Shown here: in pieces, positions 5,819 through 63,127 of the stretch
Position numbering within the stretch: the first letter of the stretch is position 1
Layout: each line of letters starts with the position of its first letter
NCBI GenBank assembly: GCA_035651995.1
Contig: DASRER010000006.1
Coordinates: forward strand, 62,001-126,000
Source of the DNA: Terriglobales bacterium
GTDB lineage: Bacteria; Acidobacteriota; Terriglobia; Terriglobales; Acidobacteriaceae
DNA length: 64,000 bases
Reading direction: 5' to 3'
Notes under the pieces: generated by a model
What the model was told of the DNA's origin: nothing
The model's input: the letters and a program-made list of their open reading frames with translations, nothing else
The model's database searches: none
Made by a program: the position numbers and the translations under genes

Positions 5819-7135
5819 TTGACTCGCTGTCGCATCGGCAAAATCGGGTGCCCCTTACGAGCCTGGTATTGGCTTGTGTCCGGATTCTCCTCGCTGCTGC
5901 TTTGCGCATGCCCGCTATCGGCGCAAACGCAGACCGTCCCGATTGACACCTCGCGCGTCATCGCGTCGAACTTCTTCGGCACCGATGTGAATGCTTTCTT
6001 TTGGGACCAGGAGCATTCCTCGATTGTCCCCATAGAACCCAATGGGCCGCCGGTGTTGATTAAAGGTCAGGTCGTGTGCCCGAATGCCGATCTGGCAAAT
6101 GGCAAGTGCCTGAGCGGCGTTTACTGGATGCTCTATCAGCTTGCTAGCGCGCCGCCGCGGCTGAAAGTCACGGTGAATAACCTGGTGGGGTTCAACTTCG
6201 TGGGCGCACACACGTTCGGCGTGCTCAACTGCGGCGCAGGAAACACGACCGCACTCTGCACGAATCTGCCGGCGCCGGTCATCGCCGCGTTCAACATGAC
6301 GGCCACCGGGGGACCGAACACGCTCACGTTCGACGTGCCCGCCGTCACGTTCCCCGGCTCCCCGTTTACGTTTTTCGTGCAGGTCACCAACCCGGCCTTC
6401 AGCGGCATCTCCGGGGTCACCATCAGCGCCAATCCGCTGCCGAATTTTCCGTACCTTTATTACCTGCCGCACGTGGTAATCGGCGGGGGATACGTCACCA
6501 AGATCACCGCCGCCGGGACGTCGCCACTCGGGGCCAGCGGCCAGATCAACTTCATTGACCAGGCAGGACACTTTATCCGCCAGGAATCGCTCGTACTTTC
6601 CCCGGGCGGCACCTTCCGTTATCAAACCGAAGAAGAAGACCGCTACTACCCGCTCACCGTCAGCTGGGCCGTGGTCGGCTCCGATCAGCCCATCGGGGTG
6701 AACGAAATCCTGGAGTACATGGCTCCCGGCAACAGCCAGTGGGCCATCTCCAACACCATTGGCTTCGGCGCCGCCCCGCCCATGACCGAATTCACCATTC
6801 CGGAGGAGATCGAGCCGGCTCCGCCCGGCGTCTCCATCGGAAAAACCATGGGCATCGCCATCGCCAACACAACCGCGACGGCCGCCGGCGTCACCGTGAA
6901 GCTTTACGACCGCTACGCCAACTTTCTGGCGACGACCAACCTGACCATCCCGCCCTACGGCCAGATCGCCTTCAACCCGCAGTCCAACCTGCCAGTCATC
7001 TCCGACGCGTACCCGAATGGCAACTTCATCGGCTCGCTGACCTTCAGCTCCAACCAGCCCGTCGCCGTCCTCGCCCTCCAGGACACCTACGGTCCCTTCG
7101 CAGCGGTTCCAGTGTTTCCGGGCAAGGGAAAGTAG
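5819..7135 (+). CDS. Secreted protein of unknown function, tandem paralogue 2
   Basis: Second member (438 residues) of the tandem secreted pair, with the same motif order as its upstream neighbour and the same YGPFAAVPVFPGKGK-type tail. A signal peptide ends near PLSAQ at about residue 36. The start is odd. An in-frame TAA lies 6 nt upstream, so the first usable codon is a TTG, yet the nearest GGAGG is 22 nt away. Translation may be inefficient or coupled to the preceding gene. The two copies have diverged well beyond recent duplication, so both are probably maintained by selection. The gene ends 1 nt before an R1 palindrome. Confidence 0.77.
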   Translation: MTRCRIGKIGCPLRAWYWLVSGFSSLLLCACPLSAQTQTVPIDTSRVIASNFFGTDVNAFFWDQEHSSIVPIEPNGPPVLIKGQVVCPNADLANGKCLSGVYWMLYQLASAPPRLKVTVNNLVGFNFVGAHTFGVLNCGAGNTTALCTNLPAPVIAAFNMTATGGPNTLTFDVPAVTFPGSPFTFFVQVTNPAFSGISGVTISANPLPNFPYLYYLPHVVIGGGYVTKITAAGTSPLGASGQINFIDQAGHFIRQESLVLSPGGTFRYQTEEEDRYYPLTVSWAVVGSDQPIGVNEILEYMAPGNSQWAISNTIGFGAAPPMTEFTIPEEIEPAPPGVSIGKTMGIAIANTTATAAGVTVKLYDRYANFLATTNLTIPPYGQIAFNPQSNLPVISDAYPNGNFIGSLTFSSNQPVAVLALQDTYGPFAAVPVFPGKGK

Positions 7136-7136
7136 C

Positions 7137-7253
7137 AGTCAGCACTCAGCAGTCAGCATTCAGCCCCTGAACATATTGCCAATGACAAAAGAAAAGCACT
7201 CAACAATCGCCCCCAAGGGCTGAATGCTGAGTGCTGTCTGCTGAGCGCTGCTT
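7137..7253. repeat. R1 palindromic element between convergent genes
   Basis: The left arm is a degenerate heptamer run (AGCACTC, AGCAGTC, AGCATTC, AGCCCC) starting 1 nt after the stop of the rightward gene. The right arm is the approximate reverse complement and ends 4 nt before the stop of the leftward gene. A centre of about 45 AT-richer bases separates them. The arms match at the level of the heptamer, with slips and substitutions, not as an exact inverted repeat. Confidence 0.85.
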
Positions 7254-15944: not shown

Positions 15945-15996
15945 GTCGTTGCGGCAGCGAACGCGCAAACGCTTGAGTTTACACGAAGGCAAAGGC

Positions 15997-16132
15997 TTAC
16001 CGCGGATGTACGCGGAGAACGCGGATTTGGCAAATCGCTCCTGGTCGCTGGCTCTTGGCTGAGCGCAAAAGCGAAAAGCCGAAAGCCAAGAGCGCTCTTG
16101 CAATCCGCGCCATCCGCGTTCATCCGCGGTAA
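15997..16132. repeat. Nested palindrome: R8 arms enclosing an R3 palindrome
   Basis: The outer arms at 15997-16027 and 16102-16132 are inverted copies built on CCGCGGATGTACGCGGAGAA, matching at about 26 of 31 positions. Inside them a second inverted pair of the R3 type (GGCTCTTGGCT and AGCCAAGAGCG) occupies the centre. The right arm ends 5 nt from the stop of the leftward response-regulator gene. Confidence 0.85.
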
Positions 16133-16137
16133 GGTTT

Positions 16138-16581
16138 TCAGGAAGCGGCCACCGAGACGCCGCGCACCGGCTGAACCGCCAGCGCTTCCACTGCCGGACG
16201 CACCAGCTTCTTGGGCCCGCGTTTGCGGACCAGCAGCAGCCGGATGCGCTCCAGCAGCTCAGACGGAGCGACCATGCCCTTGGGCAGGAAGACGTCGCCC
16301 GGCATATCGCTGTCGAAAGCGGCAATCTTGCCGGAGAAGAGAATTGCGGGGGTTGAGGGGGAGAGCTGTTTGATCTGTTCCACCAGCTGGCGGCCGTCCA
16401 CGTCGGGCATGATCACATCGCTCAGCACCAGGTCCACGCCGCCGCGATGAAAGTGTTCCAGCGCTTCGCGGCCGCTGGTGCACGGCACCACGCGGTAGCC
16501 GCGCGTCTCGAGCATGATTTTTCGGATGGAGAGCGACTGTTCGTTGTCGTCGACGCAGAGAATCGTCTTCTTGGGTCGCAT
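16138..16581 (-). CDS. Stand-alone response regulator receiver protein
   Basis: Single receiver domain of 147 residues. The acidic pair is CVDDNE (10-12), the phosphoacceptor is D55 in VLSDVIMPDVDG, the switch hydroxyl is S83 in ILFSGK (Ser in place of the usual Thr) and K101 is in FLPKG. No output domain follows; the last 25 residues are basic and unstructured-looking. Start placed at MRPKKTILCVDD, preceded on the mRNA by no strong Shine-Dalgarno. A cognate kinase is not adjacent. The histidine kinase at 25.3-27.0 kb has no partner beside it, so pairing is possible but unproven. Confidence 0.9.
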   Translation of the reverse strand: MRPKKTILCVDDNEQSLSIRKIMLETRGYRVVPCTSGREALEHFHRGGVDLVLSDVIMPDVDGRQLVEQIKQLSPSTPAILFSGKIAAFDSDMPGDVFLPKGMVAPSELLERIRLLLVRKRGPKKLVRPAVEALAVQPVRGVSVAAS

Positions 16582-31050: not shown

Positions 31051-31215
31051 CGTTTCGAGGTTTCAAGGTTTCGGGGTTTCGATGCCCTTGTGTCGGAGGC
31101 GATTGCTTTGGGACATTCCTACAAGGACTTGCCGGTCTGGGGAAAGGGTCGCGAGTTGGGGATCGAAACGTATCGCCCTACGGCTACGTTCCCAAAGCAT
31201 GAGAAACCTGAATGA
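31051..31215 (+). pseudogene. R6 repeat arm followed by an N-terminal remnant of an S23-type four-helix-bundle protein gene
   Basis: Directly after the etfA stop come about 30 nt of R6 repeat (GGTTTCAAGGTTTCGGGG units). They run into an open frame whose translation GHSYKDLPVWGKGRELGIET followed by YRPTATFPKHEK strongly resembles the start of S23 (23S rRNA intervening-sequence, Avd-like) four-helix-bundle proteins, which typically read YKDLxVWxKxxEL..IYxLTxxFPxxE. The frame stops after 36 residues, whereas complete family members have about 115-130, so the gene is truncated. The remnant's TGA overlaps the ATG of the next gene. Helices 2-4 are missing. Confidence 0.75.
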
Positions 31216-43633: not shown

Positions 43634-45292
43634 ATGCTGGTGTATCGCGATGGCCGGCGCAGGGTCGCCGGCTGCGAACTGCTGTCCGGACTCCAGGCCG
43701 CCGTCGCTCGTCTGGACCTGGCGCCTGCTCCCCCGGATGAAGCAGCGATCCTTGACGCGCTCGTGCGCGCCGGCGAGCTGGAATGCGCGCTCGGCGATGC
43801 CGAGTCACGAGCGGCTCTGGCAATAGCGCAGCTCACCGATTCCCTGGCCGACCAACTGCTGGATCCACGCGGACTTCAATTCCGCAATTCGGCAATCCGG
43901 CAATTCGGCAATTTCCCCGTTCCCGCCACGCTCAGTGTGTCGGCGCCCGAGGGTTTCGCTTACTACGCGCTGCACCCGCGCCACTACGCGGAGTTGGCCG
44001 AGCGGGCGTTGCTTGCCGAGGCGCCCGTCGCGGTCATCGGCATTCGCAGCATAGGCACGACGCTCAGCGCCGTGGTTGTGGCCGCGGCGCGGCGTCGCAG
44101 CCTGCCCGCCGAGCGCATTACCGTGCGTCCGGCCGGACATCCCTTCGACCGCCACACGCGGTTCTCCGAAGAGCAGCGCACCTGGATCGGCACAATGGTC
44201 GCGCGCAGGGCGCGTTTTCTGGTGGTGGACGAAGGCCCGGGCCTGAGCGGGTCGTCGTTCCTGTCTGTTGCCGAGGCACTCGAGCGCGACGGCGTGCCGG
44301 CGCGCCAGATCACGCTGCTCGCCAGCCATGCGGCGCGTCCGGAGATGATGTGCGCGCCGCAGGCCGCCGAACGCTGGCCGCGCTTCCAGTGCCTCGCCGT
44401 CGAGGGCGGTCCCCAGGTTCCCGCGGAGGCGGCCGTCAGCCTCTGCGGCGGGCAGTGGCGAAGGCATTTCGGCTGGGAAGCGGCGCGATGGCCCGCCTGC
44501 TGGCCCGCGGTCGAGCGTGCGAAGTTCCTCTCGCGCGACGGCCGCATGCTGTTCAAGTTCGAAGGCTTCGGTGCCTACGGCAGCGCGCCGATCGCGCGCT
44601 CCGCCGAACTGGCCCGCGCCGGCTTCGGACCTCGCGTCGCCGACGCCGGCCAGGGTTTCGCGGCTTACGAAATCCTCGCCGGCGAGCGCCTTCCGGCCGC
44701 ACCGTTATCGGGGCCGCTCCTGCGGGAGCTGGCGCGCTACTGCGCATTTCGCCGCGAGACATTGGCGACCGACAGAATCTGCGACCCGGCGCCGCTGGCC
44801 GAGCTGCTGCAGACGAATGTGCGGGAAGAATTGGCATTCGAAGCCGGCGACCGGTTCGACGTCCATTACGAAGCCGCGCCAGCCGTCATCACCGACGGCC
44901 GCATGCAGCCGCACGAGTGGTTGCCATTGCCGGACGGCCGCTTGCAGAAGTTCGACGCCGCCAGCCACGGCGACGACCACTTCTATCCCGGCCCGACCGA
45001 CATCGCCTGGGACCTGGCCGGCGCGATCATCGAATGGGCGATGGACCAGCGTGCTGCAGAACTCTTCGTGAACGCCTATCGCAACGCGACGGCCGACGAC
45101 CCCACGCGGCGCCTTCCATTCTTCCTCGCGGCCTACGCCGCGTTTCGCGTGGGCTGGTGCCGCATGGCCGAGGGCGCCACCGGCGACCCGCAGGAAAAAC
45201 AGCGGTTGCGTCGAGCCGGCGACGGCTACCGCGCGGTCCTCGAGCGGGGCGTGCGCGCCCTCGCTCCCCGCGATGCCGCGCGTGTGGCGTAA
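43634..45292 (+). CDS. Fusion of a phosphoribosyltransferase-like domain and an aminoglycoside-phosphotransferase-like kinase domain
   Basis: Cytosolic protein of 552 residues. Residues about 100-260 look like a type-I PRTase core: VAVIGIRSIGTTLSAVVVAA and the PRPP-loop-like FLVVDEGPGLSGSSFLSVAEAL. Residues about 295-530 resemble APH-like small-molecule kinases: FKFEGFGAYGSAPIARSAEL, then ITDGRMQPHEWLPL and KFDAASHGDDHFYPGPTDIAWDLAGA in the place of the catalytic and metal loops. An R2 repeat arm lies in frame at residues about 81-94 (FRNSAIRQFGNF) in an otherwise variable linker. No operon partner reveals the substrate; nucleotide or sugar salvage is a guess. It converges on a DegT aminotransferase. 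Confidence 0.68.
   Translation: MLVYRDGRRRVAGCELLSGLQAAVARLDLAPAPPDEAAILDALVRAGELECALGDAESRAALAIAQLTDSLADQLLDPRGLQFRNSAIRQFGNFPVPATLSVSAPEGFAYYALHPRHYAELAERALLAEAPVAVIGIRSIGTTLSAVVVAAARRRSLPAERITVRPAGHPFDRHTRFSEEQRTWIGTMVARRARFLVVDEGPGLSGSSFLSVAEALERDGVPARQITLLASHAARPEMMCAPQAAERWPRFQCLAVEGGPQVPAEAAVSLCGGQWRRHFGWEAARWPACWPAVERAKFLSRDGRMLFKFEGFGAYGSAPIARSAELARAGFGPRVADAGQGFAAYEILAGERLPAAPLSGPLLRELARYCAFRRETLATDRICDPAPLAELLQTNVREELAFEAGDRFDVHYEAAPAVITDGRMQPHEWLPLPDGRLQKFDAASHGDDHFYPGPTDIAWDLAGAIIEWAMDQRAAELFVNAYRNATADDPTRRLPFFLAAYAAFRVGWCRMAEGATGDPQEKQRLRRAGDGYRAVLERGVRALAPRDAARVA
43877..43917. repeat. R2 repeat arm inside a coding sequence
   Basis: Four units of GGCAATTC-type repeat. The segment matches the right inner arm of the nested element at 47095-47135 at about 33 of 38 positions. 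It keeps the host frame open, adding about 12 residues. Confidence 0.85.
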
Positions 45293-46613: not shown

Positions 46614-46985
46614 CTACGTCCCGCTTGCTTCCGTTGTTCGCTCGATGTGCGGCCTCGGCGGCAAGGGTTCGCTTCGCTCAATGGCCGCAAGGCAAACGCT
46701 GAGACTCGCCCGCAGCGGCGCCAATCGCAGCCCCGCGCTGCCCTCAGGAAACCCGGACATGTTCGCCAGCGCGCGGGCCAGCACCGACTGCGCACCCGTC
46801 AAATTGCCCGTGGAGTGATGATGCAGCGCCACCGCCGCCTGCGTCACGCCCTGCAGCAGCAGCTTCTCGTCGCCCGAACAGCTGCGCCAGGCGTCTTCCA
46901 GCGCCTCGTGCGCGTCAAAGTAGCGCCCGGCGTTGAACAGGCGGATGCCGTGCTCGAGATGCGCGCGGGTTTCGTCGCTCAGCAT
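46614..46985 (-). CDS. DUF309-family protein
   Basis: Helical protein of 123 residues starting MLSDETRAHLEHGIRLFNAG. The DUF309 signature is clear: FDAHEALEDAWRSC, then LLLQGVTQAAVALHHHSTGN with the conserved His cluster. A metal site is plausible from the His and Glu pattern, but no activity is known. The upstream start ATG lies next to the large nested palindrome. Confidence 0.85.
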   Translation of the reverse strand: MLSDETRAHLEHGIRLFNAGRYFDAHEALEDAWRSCSGDEKLLLQGVTQAAVALHHHSTGNLTGAQSVLARALANMSGFPEGSAGLRLAPLRASLSVCLAAIERSEPLPPRPHIERTTEASGT

Positions 46986-46990
46986 GGACA

Positions 46991-47173
46991 CAAGCACTCA
47001 GCAGTCAGCACTCAGCATTCAGCCCCTGGACCGATTGCCGAACCGCCGAACTGCGGCACTGCCGAATTGGAACCCGTTATACGAACAACGGGTTTCAATT
47101 CGGCAGTTCGGCAATTCGGCCATTCGGCAATCAGCTCAGAGGCTGAATGCCAATTGCTGAGTGCTGAATGCTG
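46991..47173. repeat. Nested palindrome: R1 arms enclosing an R2 palindrome
   Basis: The outer R1 arms are at about 46993-47028 (AGCACTCAGCAGTCAGCACT) and 47144-47173 (inverse). Inner R2 arms lie at about 47035-47066 (GATTGCCGAACCGCCGAACT) and 47095-47135 (inverse). The core is the perfect 8-bp hairpin AACCCGTT/AACGGGTT at about 47067-47094. The outer right arm ends exactly at the stop codon of the leftward membrane-protein gene. Confidence 0.9.
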
Positions 47174-47908
47174 CTATCCGAAGATCACGTAATGGCTCGC
47201 CGCCGCCATGAAGAACAGCATGGGAATGGAGAGCCATGCGTTGGTGCGCGAGGCCAGGAACGCCTGCCGCGCCAGCTTGGCGGCGTCGGGCGCGGGGGTG
47301 CCGGCCAGCGCGCCGTTGATGATCTTCTTGTTATTCCGCCAGATGATGCCCCACACGTTGAACATCATCACCCAGCCGAAGCCGCCGCCGATGCCGATGC
47401 TGATCATGCGGCTCGACTCCCAGCCGTGCATGTTCATGTTGACGAAGAGGTAGGCCGCCGCGCCCAGCAGGATGGCCGCGATCACGGCAAACACCGGTCC
47501 TTTATTGATGGCGGCGATGTCCGGCGCCTTGAGCACGATGGCGTACTCAATGGCGAAGGTCACCGTCCACAGCAGCAGGAAAAGGCCGATGGCCGCGCCC
47601 GCGTTCCCGCCGCCGTTATGCGCGTCCACCGCGACAATCGTCTGCGCCCAGTACCAGAAGCCGGCGAACACCGTCACCACCGCGCCCCATCGGAACCAGA
47701 ACAGGGCCGGCAGCGTGAGGTTCTTGAAGATGTGCTGCCGCATAGGCGCTTCGGTCACGCTCTTCATGAAGGGCACGTTGATGAGGTTGAAGAAGTAGAG
47801 CAGTCCGATCCAGGTGATGCCGGCCAAAAAGTGCGCCCACCGCAGGATGATCTGCAGGTTCTCGGTGTTGGTGTGGGTCGGCATGGAGAACGCCATCAGG
47901 TTCAGCAT
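47174..47908 (-). CDS. Urate-oxidase N-terminal-domain (PuuD-like) membrane protein
   Basis: Inner-membrane protein of 244 residues with about six to seven hydrophobic helices. It matches the N-terminal membrane domain of PuuD-type urate oxidases: ILRWAHFLAGITWIGLLYFFNLINVPFM, FRWGAVVTVFAGFWYWAQ, MISIGIGGGFGWVMMFNVWGIIW and the conserved His in these helices. PuuD proteins usually carry a C-terminal cytochrome c domain; here the chain stops without one and no CXXCH occurs. AGGAGA precedes the ATG. Without the cytochrome or other purine genes nearby, urate oxidation is uncertain. Confidence 0.85.
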   Translation of the reverse strand: MLNLMAFSMPTHTNTENLQIILRWAHFLAGITWIGLLYFFNLINVPFMKSVTEAPMRQHIFKNLTLPALFWFRWGAVVTVFAGFWYWAQTIVAVDAHNGGGNAGAAIGLFLLLWTVTFAIEYAIVLKAPDIAAINKGPVFAVIAAILLGAAAYLFVNMNMHGWESSRMISIGIGGGFGWVMMFNVWGIIWRNNKKIINGALAGTPAPDAAKLARQAFLASRTNAWLSIPMLFFMAAASHYVIFG

Positions 47909-58835: not shown

Positions 58836-58940
58836 AGCAGCAATCAGCATTCAGCGCTCAGCATTCAGCCCCTGAGCGCTAATCGCTGACTGAGAACACC
58901 AAACCGTTCGCGGGCTGAATGCTGACTGCTGATTGCTAAT
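58836..58940. repeat. R1 palindrome overlapping the atpC initiation region
   Basis: The left arm AGCAATCAGCATTCAGCGCT starts 2 nt after the atpD stop. The right arm GCTGAATGCTGACTGCTGAT runs into the atpC start codon at 58939. The ribosome-binding region of atpC is thus the repeat, and it should be sequestered in a long imperfect hairpin. Confidence 0.9.
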
Positions 58941-59349
58941 GGCCGAAGCTCTCCAACTCGAGATCGTCACCCCCGAGCGCCAGGTGCTGGCCGACACGGC
59001 GTCCGAGATCCAGGTTCCGGGCAAGAACGGATACCTGGGCATCCTGCCGGGACACGCGCCGCTCATCACCGAACTCGCCGTGGGCGAAATCACCTACCGG
59101 CCCGCGGCCGGCGGCGACGCGCAGCACATTGCCGTGGCCTGGGGCTTCGCCGAAGTCCTGCCTGACAAGGTGACCATCCTGGCCGAGACCGCCGAGCGGG
59201 CTGCGGAGATCGACGTCGCCCGCGCGGAAAAATCCAAGCAGCGCGCCGAACAACGCCTCGCCAAGCCCACCGACGAACTGGACGTGCAACGCTCGCAGGA
59301 GTCCCTGGAGCGCGCCCAGGTCCGGCTCCAGGTGGCAAGCAAGAAGTAG
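58939..59349 (+). CDS. atpC: F-type ATP synthase subunit epsilon
   Basis: Central-stalk subunit of 136 residues starting at the ATG of MAEALQLEIVTPERQVLAD. The N-terminal beta-sandwich (QVPGKNGYLGILPGHAPLITELAVGEITYR, VAWGFAEVLPDKVTILAETAERA) is followed by the C-terminal two-helix inhibitory domain (EIDVARAEKSKQRAEQRL). There is no Shine-Dalgarno because the upstream bases belong to an R1 palindrome. Last gene of the operon. Confidence 0.95.
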   Translation: MAEALQLEIVTPERQVLADTASEIQVPGKNGYLGILPGHAPLITELAVGEITYRPAAGGDAQHIAVAWGFAEVLPDKVTILAETAERAAEIDVARAEKSKQRAEQRLAKPTDELDVQRSQESLERAQVRLQVASKK

Positions 59350-62836: not shown

Positions 62837-63127
62837 TTGAATATCGGGTCATCGGGCCATCGGGTCATTGGACCGGAGGGTAGGCTGGAGAGCATTCCGG
62901 AAGCACTACTGGAGGAAGCAGACGAGACGGTGTTTTGGATCGAACTCTTGATGGAATCCGGACTGTTGCCTGCCAAGCGGCTAGTCCCCTTGCTCAACGA
63001 AGCGTGCGAGCTGACCAAGATCTTCGCCGCGAGTCGCAGAACGTCGTCACGTGGCGCAACCGGCGATTGAGAGATATCGGGTAAGCTGGGCCCAATGGCC
63101 CGATAACCCGAAGGCCCGATATTCAAT
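62837..63127 (+). mobile_element. R7 palindromic element carrying a C-terminal remnant of an S23-type four-helix-bundle protein gene
   Basis: The terminal arms are at about 62838-62879 (AATATCGGGTCATCGGGCCA) and about 63070-63127 (TGGCCCGATAACCCGAAGGC), approximate inverses of about 40 nt. The left arm starts directly after the kinase stop and the right arm ends at the ATG of the phosphatase. Between them, an in-frame stretch LESIPEALLEEADETVFWIE, LLMESGLLPAKRLVPLLNEA, CELTKIFAASRRTSSRG matches helices 3-4 of S23/Avd-like proteins; the N-terminal half is missing. The frame reads in from the left arm without a start codon of its own. Confidence 0.75.

Follow-up and report, generated by a model that had tools for sequence, protein, structure and literature searches.

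We analyzed a window of 64,000 nucleotides from the Terriglobales bacterium assembly GCA_035651995.1 (contig DASRER010000006.1, positions 62,001 to 126,000), and coordinates below count from the first base of this stretch. At 46986-47179 the window holds a composite palindrome between two minus-strand genes, a DUF309 gene at 46614-46985 (PF03745, E 1.4e-21) and a Urate_ox_N gene at 47174-47908 (ORF list; PF06181, E 2.4e-12). The palindrome occupies the whole gap between them, running from the DUF309 start codon (an ATG at 46985 picked by eye; the ORF list starts at a GTG at 46997) to the stop codon of the urate-oxidase-N-like gene at 47174-47176.

The palindrome is an inverted repeat with arms of 93 nt (46986-47078 and 47087-47179) that are 81% complementary and separated by 8 nt. 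The outer arms, R1, are tandem AGCANTC heptamers that TRF places, with period 7, at 46993-47023 on the plus strand (4.4 copies) and at 47142-47173 on the minus strand (4.6 copies), where the right arm adjoins the stop codon. The inner arms, R2, are tandem octamers of the unit TTGCCGAA, at 47034-47069 on the plus strand (TRF period 8 at 47036-47066, 3.9 copies) and at 47096-47131 on the minus strand (4.5 copies). Between the two sets of arms lie short residues that resemble part of the R1 core. The left one (47024-47033, plus strand, CCCTGGACCG) is like the start of un-nested R1 cores by eye and corresponds to the base of the R1 apical stem, and the right one (47132-47141, minus strand) has, by eye, a near-identical counterpart at the nested copy C28 (L115). 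The innermost stem (47070-47078, plus strand, and 47087-47095, minus strand; inverted repeat, fold, and pairing count) is continuous with the R2 arm and closes on an 8-nt terminal loop at 47079-47086 given by the inverted-repeat search.

Treated as single-stranded DNA, the interval 46961-47200 folded at -77.8 kcal/mol, a value that none of 200 dinucleotide shuffles reached (mean -39.1, sd 3.58; z -10.81). Along the ungapped arms, pairs formed at 30/38 positions in the R1 arm, 8/12 in the R1 core residue, 29/34 in the R2 arm, and 12/13 in the innermost stem, with the ranges of these parts overlapping by two positions. The palindrome with R2 inside R1, first noticed in a sequence-only reading, was thus borne out. 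That reading had counted three concentric layers, and the outer R1 and inner R2 arms stand as two of them; the third, a separate 8-bp core hairpin, is unsupported because the innermost stem simply runs on from the R2 helix. Few of the R2 copies that stand alone have GAAACC/GGTTT-like flanks (5/29 on the left and 4/29 on the right; background windows, 2.5% and 1.35%), and the core may thus be no fixed part of R2. The AGCANTC heptamer and the TTGCCGAA octamer look unrelated by eye.

Both families are dispersed in the genome. With up to three mismatches, a three-unit R1 pattern matched the 3.66-Mb genome 252 times (reversed control, 6), and the R2 pattern 164 times (reversed control, 1). Clustering about the first 100 matches of each, plus one further listing, gave 92 places, of which 42 held R1 only, 45 R2 only, and 5 both. 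Among the matches listed, the two arm types therefore behave as independent families, as had been proposed, and they are not always found together within this genome. Un-nested R1 copies without R2 also lie in the window itself, at 7134-7250 and 58838-58941 (inverted-repeat search and TRF). R1 spans about 115 nt and begins with AGCANTC units, and R2 spans about 95 nt with no gene noticed inside. Two further arrays were observed in passing: a one-sided R2 array at 43877-43913 is seemingly read in frame as part of the open frame 43634-45292, which contains it, and G039, a genome from another family, carries R1-like arrays that alternate over 14 nt (GCACTCAGGACTCA).

The R1 copies make up one coherent element. 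The space between un-nested R1 arms had a median of 50 nt (IQR 46.75-52.25; 44 entries, a summary that keeps some spurious or duplicate two-armed entries such as the overlapping L116/L117 and second entries at L071 and L074). After trimming, and with L116 left out, 19/29 R1 cores fell in one cluster that included both orientations, and the other 10 were singletons; of 406 pairs, 20 on the same strand and 26 on opposite strands were linked at the 99.5% shuffle level, where about 2 were expected. Within the heptamer, position 5 was free (C 123, T 89, G 70, A 39 in 321 units) and agreed between paired arms at 45/130 comparisons, near chance, while the other positions were kept. Only units with at most one mismatch to AGCANTC were counted, a filter that explains part of the conservation seen at the six fixed positions and does not act on position 5. 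The near-chance agreement at position 5 suggests that R1 units turn over independently of pairing. This is what one would expect if slippage and template switching at hairpins had generated the arrays and palindromes locally, with nesting as a by-product and no mobile element involved. A common AGCANTC unit and a common core of about 50 nt at many unlinked sites require dispersal, however, and we regard an origin purely in place as very improbable; a mixed form may still apply.

Among the matches listed, R2 lay between R1 arms at all five places that held both (C2, C6, C28, C38, and C48). C6 is the composite at 46986-47179. C38 keeps the right R2 arm only and has a further repeat inside; at this locus (L127, C38:98803-100031) R1 surrounds half of R2 and a TCATCCTGAGCGAAG-type repeat, so that three families meet there. 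In a rough chance model (about 50 R2 copies and about 50 R1 cores, each 50 nt long, in an assumed 0.4 Mb of intergenic DNA, for the listed places only), about 0.31 nestings were expected, and the Poisson tail is 1.8e-5 for five events, 3.0e-4 for four, 3.9e-3 for three, and 0.039 for two. Both families are present in clear numbers in two relatives, G001 and G024, whose listed coordinates contain no R1-R2 pair less than 400 bp apart.

The number of events bears on whether R1 with an R2 core was made once and then spread as a unit, so that all five nested copies are its descendants. C6 and C28 share their junctions and residual core, and they are mutually best matches when the R1 residue is included (0.778; 0.801 for the whole composite), as such descent would predict. 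C48, too, found its best matches among the nested copies whether or not the residue was trimmed, with low values (0.721 with the residue, 0.719 trimmed). Against this, C2 untrimmed (0.768) and C6 trimmed (0.772) were nearest to single R2 copies, C38 holds a third repeat and only one R2 arm, and among the matches listed, places with R1 or R2 alone greatly outnumber nested ones. Trimmed C28 was nearest to C6 and C2, and trimmed C2 to C28 (0.758), by a small margin over single copies. The kinship of C6 and C28 thus depends on whether the R1 residue is included, and C38 (L127) was excluded from both composite comparisons. Descent of all five from one composite seems rather unlikely to us; the comparisons would fit anything from two to five independent nestings.

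What remains of R1 at these places suggests the order of events. The space between R1 arms at the nested copies was 98, 103, 115, 118, and 171 nt, versus the un-nested median of 50 nt. By eye, nested copies retain roughly 9-13 nt of R1 core on the left and 8-12 nt on the right, and the retained ends resemble the CCCCTGAAC / GTTCAGGGG base of the R1 apical stem. Since merely about 10 nt of R1 core is kept per side, R2 stands where the R1 loop was. The sequence-only reading had proposed insertion into the center of an existing palindrome, and later entry of R2 into R1 is indeed the best reading; a clean insertion does not fit, since most of the R1 core has been replaced. Judged from other R1 copies, the event would have been a replacement of the tip. 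The opposite order, in which a moving R1 captured an existing R2 as its core, would agree with the variable content of R1 cores (10/29 trimmed cores are singletons) and with the unrelated contents that arms of this class surround, among them genes for IVPs (23S rRNA intervening-sequence, or IVS, proteins). Yet the nested copies retain the standard R1 core ends on both sides by eye, as if a normal R1 came first, and we consider capture an unlikely course of events.

Concentric pairs of other families also turned up when searched for. We searched the window and sets of 92 and 20 loci automatically for ungapped inverted repeats lying one inside the other, and obtained four pairs, versus none in three shuffled windows. 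Two of these (L059 and L278) stand; L089 was discounted because both layers belong to the same family, and L116 because its outer arm was at chance level. At L278, GTTTCNC arms are enclosed by GTTGCCA arms. The ungapped search misses continuous cases such as 46986-47179 itself. A second concentric pair in the window, at 15991-16138, has ATCCGCG-type outer arms found by the inverted-repeat search and GCTCTTGGC-type inner arms seen by eye. Also by eye, L288 has GTTTCNC outside and CTTCGTG inside, and L294 has CGCGGAGA outside and GTTTCNC inside. With GTTTCNC inner at L278 and outer at L288, there is seemingly no fixed order of families.

These pairs do not amount to a general choice of hairpin tips as targets, which the nesting had been taken to imply. 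In the flanks of 49 R1 elements, and of 29 R2 elements that stand alone, no outer palindrome was significant, the observed mean being reached by 190/200 permutations for R1 and 16/200 for R2; the flank score of one single R2, L112, was 11. Direct repeats of the kind that a target-site duplication would leave did not exceed permuted flanks in length (R1 2.71 vs 2.72; R2 2.69 vs 2.72). With neither outer palindromes nor direct repeats in the flanks, hairpin tips are at most a favored site.

Orthologous sites were sought through the flanking genes. The Urate_ox_N-like protein had a match in 15/40 relatives searched, none of the same genus, and its best-ranked match in a scan of named genomes, possibly without records of the window's own genome, had 59% identity (best-segment values to 61% at lower ranks). 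No DUF309 neighbor within 420 nt was seen by eye at the seven loci with a resolved gene end (19 loci tried), and among these relatives no empty counterpart of the site was seen.

Elsewhere in the window, tandem arrays adjoin probable fragments of protein genes. A palindrome with octamer arms (ATCGGGTC / GGCCCGAT) at 62843-63120 (plus strand) encloses a probable C-terminal fragment of a four-helix-bundle protein (TIGR02436 E 7.4e-4, 19.7 bits against a cut-off of 24; PF05635 E 0.07; missed by our own HMM), and this fragment led us to examine IVP genes (PF05635) in general for arms. The ATCGGATC arms of an IVP locus in G044 (L312) resemble its ATCGGGTC arms. At 31052-31207 (plus strand), a GTTTCGAG array is followed by an N-terminal IVP fragment (own HMM E 2e-4; NF008911 E 9.4e-5, 22.9 bits against a cut-off of 137), probably a decayed IVP element; the fragment comes directly after a stop codon, and no right arm was seen. 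The one stop-free IVP gene of this genome (C42:66312) has GTTTCNC arms. This heptamer pattern matched the genome 151 times (reversed, 4), and at 6/19 places elsewhere (L277, L278, L279, L281, L282, and L288) it formed two arms with a spacer too short for an IVP gene. At L279 (C20:4500-5000), several GTTTC-type arms lie beside an R1-like array (TTAGCAG variant) within 500 bases.

For the comparisons we retrieved 132 sequence stretches. Inverted flanks above the 99% shuffle level occurred at 21/28 IVP loci from this genome and its relatives (30 of 54 matches, 2 too short), versus 1/15 control genes (18, of which 3 were too short) and 1/98 random intervals. The sole control gene above threshold was a Y1 transposase gene with a strong inverted repeat (L225 in G057, score 33). 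Adding nine genomes selected mostly as R1-rich raised the count to 41/52 IVP loci (3 of 55 too short). Seventeen further genomes, reached via named loci, seven of them with IVP matches, gave inverted flanks at 16/29 IVP loci, nine in two more Acidobacteriota genomes and the remainder in Nitrospirota, Thiobacillus, and Bdellovibrionales. Loci without detectable arms numbered 11/52 and 13/29 in these two sets. Where measurable, IVP arms had a best period of 7 in 30/34 cases, 8 in three, and 9 in one; a best period of 7 of equal strength was found in 32/20,000 segments of random DNA. Arms of unrelated sequence at different IVP loci had the period of 7 in common, and many of their units start with AG. 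The frequent location of IVP genes between inverted heptamer arrays appears to be new here, although the evidence against prior reports is a weak negative: among the matches listed, in a search by title or abstract start that covered few subscription journals, we found no paper on IVP genes with such arrays outside rRNA.

R1-type arms themselves flanked the IVP gene on either side, in inward orientation, at 4/82 IVP loci: L315 (the same as L242, G024), L298 (G042), L311 (G023), and L321 (G077). Three of the four come from genomes selected mostly for R1 richness, and the first, less selected 28 loci had none. Inverted R2-type arms were found around none of the 82 IVP genes. In view of the four loci, the best reading of R1 is that it belongs to an IVS-like class but lacks the IVP gene, and it may derive from an IVP-bearing element as an IVP-less, MITE-like form. 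R2 would be placed, solely by its architecture, in the wider class of short elements between genes in which a variable core is bounded by tandem 7- or 8-mers arrayed in inverted orientation. G041 has 169 R1 matches and no IVP match, so IVP may act only at times, may have been lost, or may have no role in movement.

Movement might instead be due to a Y1 (RAYT-like) transposase mobilizing R1 and R2 as REP- or REPIN-like elements. Such genes are available, as this genome has three Y1_Tnp matches and 49/61 genomes have at least one. In the examples examined, though, the counts were untied (G041, 169 R1 and 4 Y1; G007, 1 R1 and 16 Y1), and the arms are tandem heptamers in which no tag tetranucleotide was seen by eye. 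We found no link between R1 and a RAYT, and give this explanation a poor chance.

Taken together, it is reasonably probable that the locus is a two-element composite of a single architectural class, in which R1 is an IVP-less, MITE-like form and R2 entered the tip of R1 later and displaced its loop. We infer both the mobility of R1 and R2 and its mechanism. R1 would have been present first with its standard core of about 50 nt; its hairpin tip would then have been extruded or single-stranded, and R2 would have entered this exposed tip and displaced the R1 loop. The outcome would be like that of an IVS taking the place of a tetraloop in a 23S rRNA helix. IVSs are elements that RNase III removes from RNA; lying outside rRNA, the composite is by definition not an IVS, but it may work like one. 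A broader proposal, which we put forward tentatively and hold to be on balance doubtful, is that IVP elements with inverted heptamer ends form a widespread intergenic class of mobile DNA without a known transposase that can settle in hairpin tips, that the IVSs of 23S rRNA are copies that landed in rRNA, and that R1 and R2 are gene-less derivatives also landing in each other.

Several known systems share features with the composite. Like REPs, BIMEs, and REPINs, R1 and R2 are dispersed intergenic palindromes with many copies. REPs measure 20-40 bp (PMC3733652), whereas the elements here are 100-190 nt with tandem-array arms (R1 about 115 nt), and no GTAG-like end tag was seen in R1 by eye. IS1397, IS621, and ISKpn1 encode transposases and are IS-sized, unlike R2 with its 95 nt or so and no gene noticed. 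Their insertion into REP palindromes is a precedent for mobile DNA that chooses palindromes (PMC1525189). With MITEs of DDE transposons the composite shares terminal inverted repeats, and it differs in that end direct repeats matched those of permuted flanks and gave no target-site duplication. As to a parent transposon with matching ends, what was found inside R1-type ends was an IVP gene and no known transposase, Y1 being the sole transposase searched for. Heptamer repeats and hairpins are both features of cyanobacteria. TAACTGA heptamer repeats between genes have been described in Beggiatoaceae and cyanobacteria and are, like the arms here, short tandem heptamers in intergenic DNA; they are mainly direct (one genome has 169 sets and a single indirect one) and mostly just upstream of start codons, and the abstract of that report has no inverted-arm element (PMC4679880). 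The BrickBuilt MITE of Porphyromonas gingivalis is also intergenic and contains tandem repeats, but as described its unit is 23 nt, its array is internal, and its inverted ends are small (PMC4596501).

The closest likeness is to the IVSs of 23S rRNA with an S23p/IVP ORF, in which inverted-repeat ends form a long stem, an optional IVP gene lies in the loop, and the loop at the tip of a host hairpin is replaced (PMC4990558). The composite also has complementary ends that form a stem, and R2 occupies most of the position of the R1 core, so that, judged from other R1 copies, a host hairpin loop would have been replaced here too. It differs in lying between DUF309 and Urate_ox_N genes and not in a 23S rRNA helix, in having ends of tandem 7-8-mers and many copies per genome, mostly without an IVP gene in the copies read here, and in having no IVP ORF at 46986-47179; an IVP gene inside R1-type arms was seen only at the 4/82 loci in other genomes. 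IVS/S23p elements had been known for more than 25 years in 2016, when their function and origin were called unclear (PMC4990558). Should many copies of intergenic relatives exist that carry this gene between defined ends, experiments could address how they choose targets, how they end, and how they move. The period of 7 nt that arms of unrelated sequence have in common may reflect one shared protein or copying step, and R1-type elements able to carry a small gene otherwise known from insertions in ribosomal RNA hint at an overlooked class of mobile DNA.
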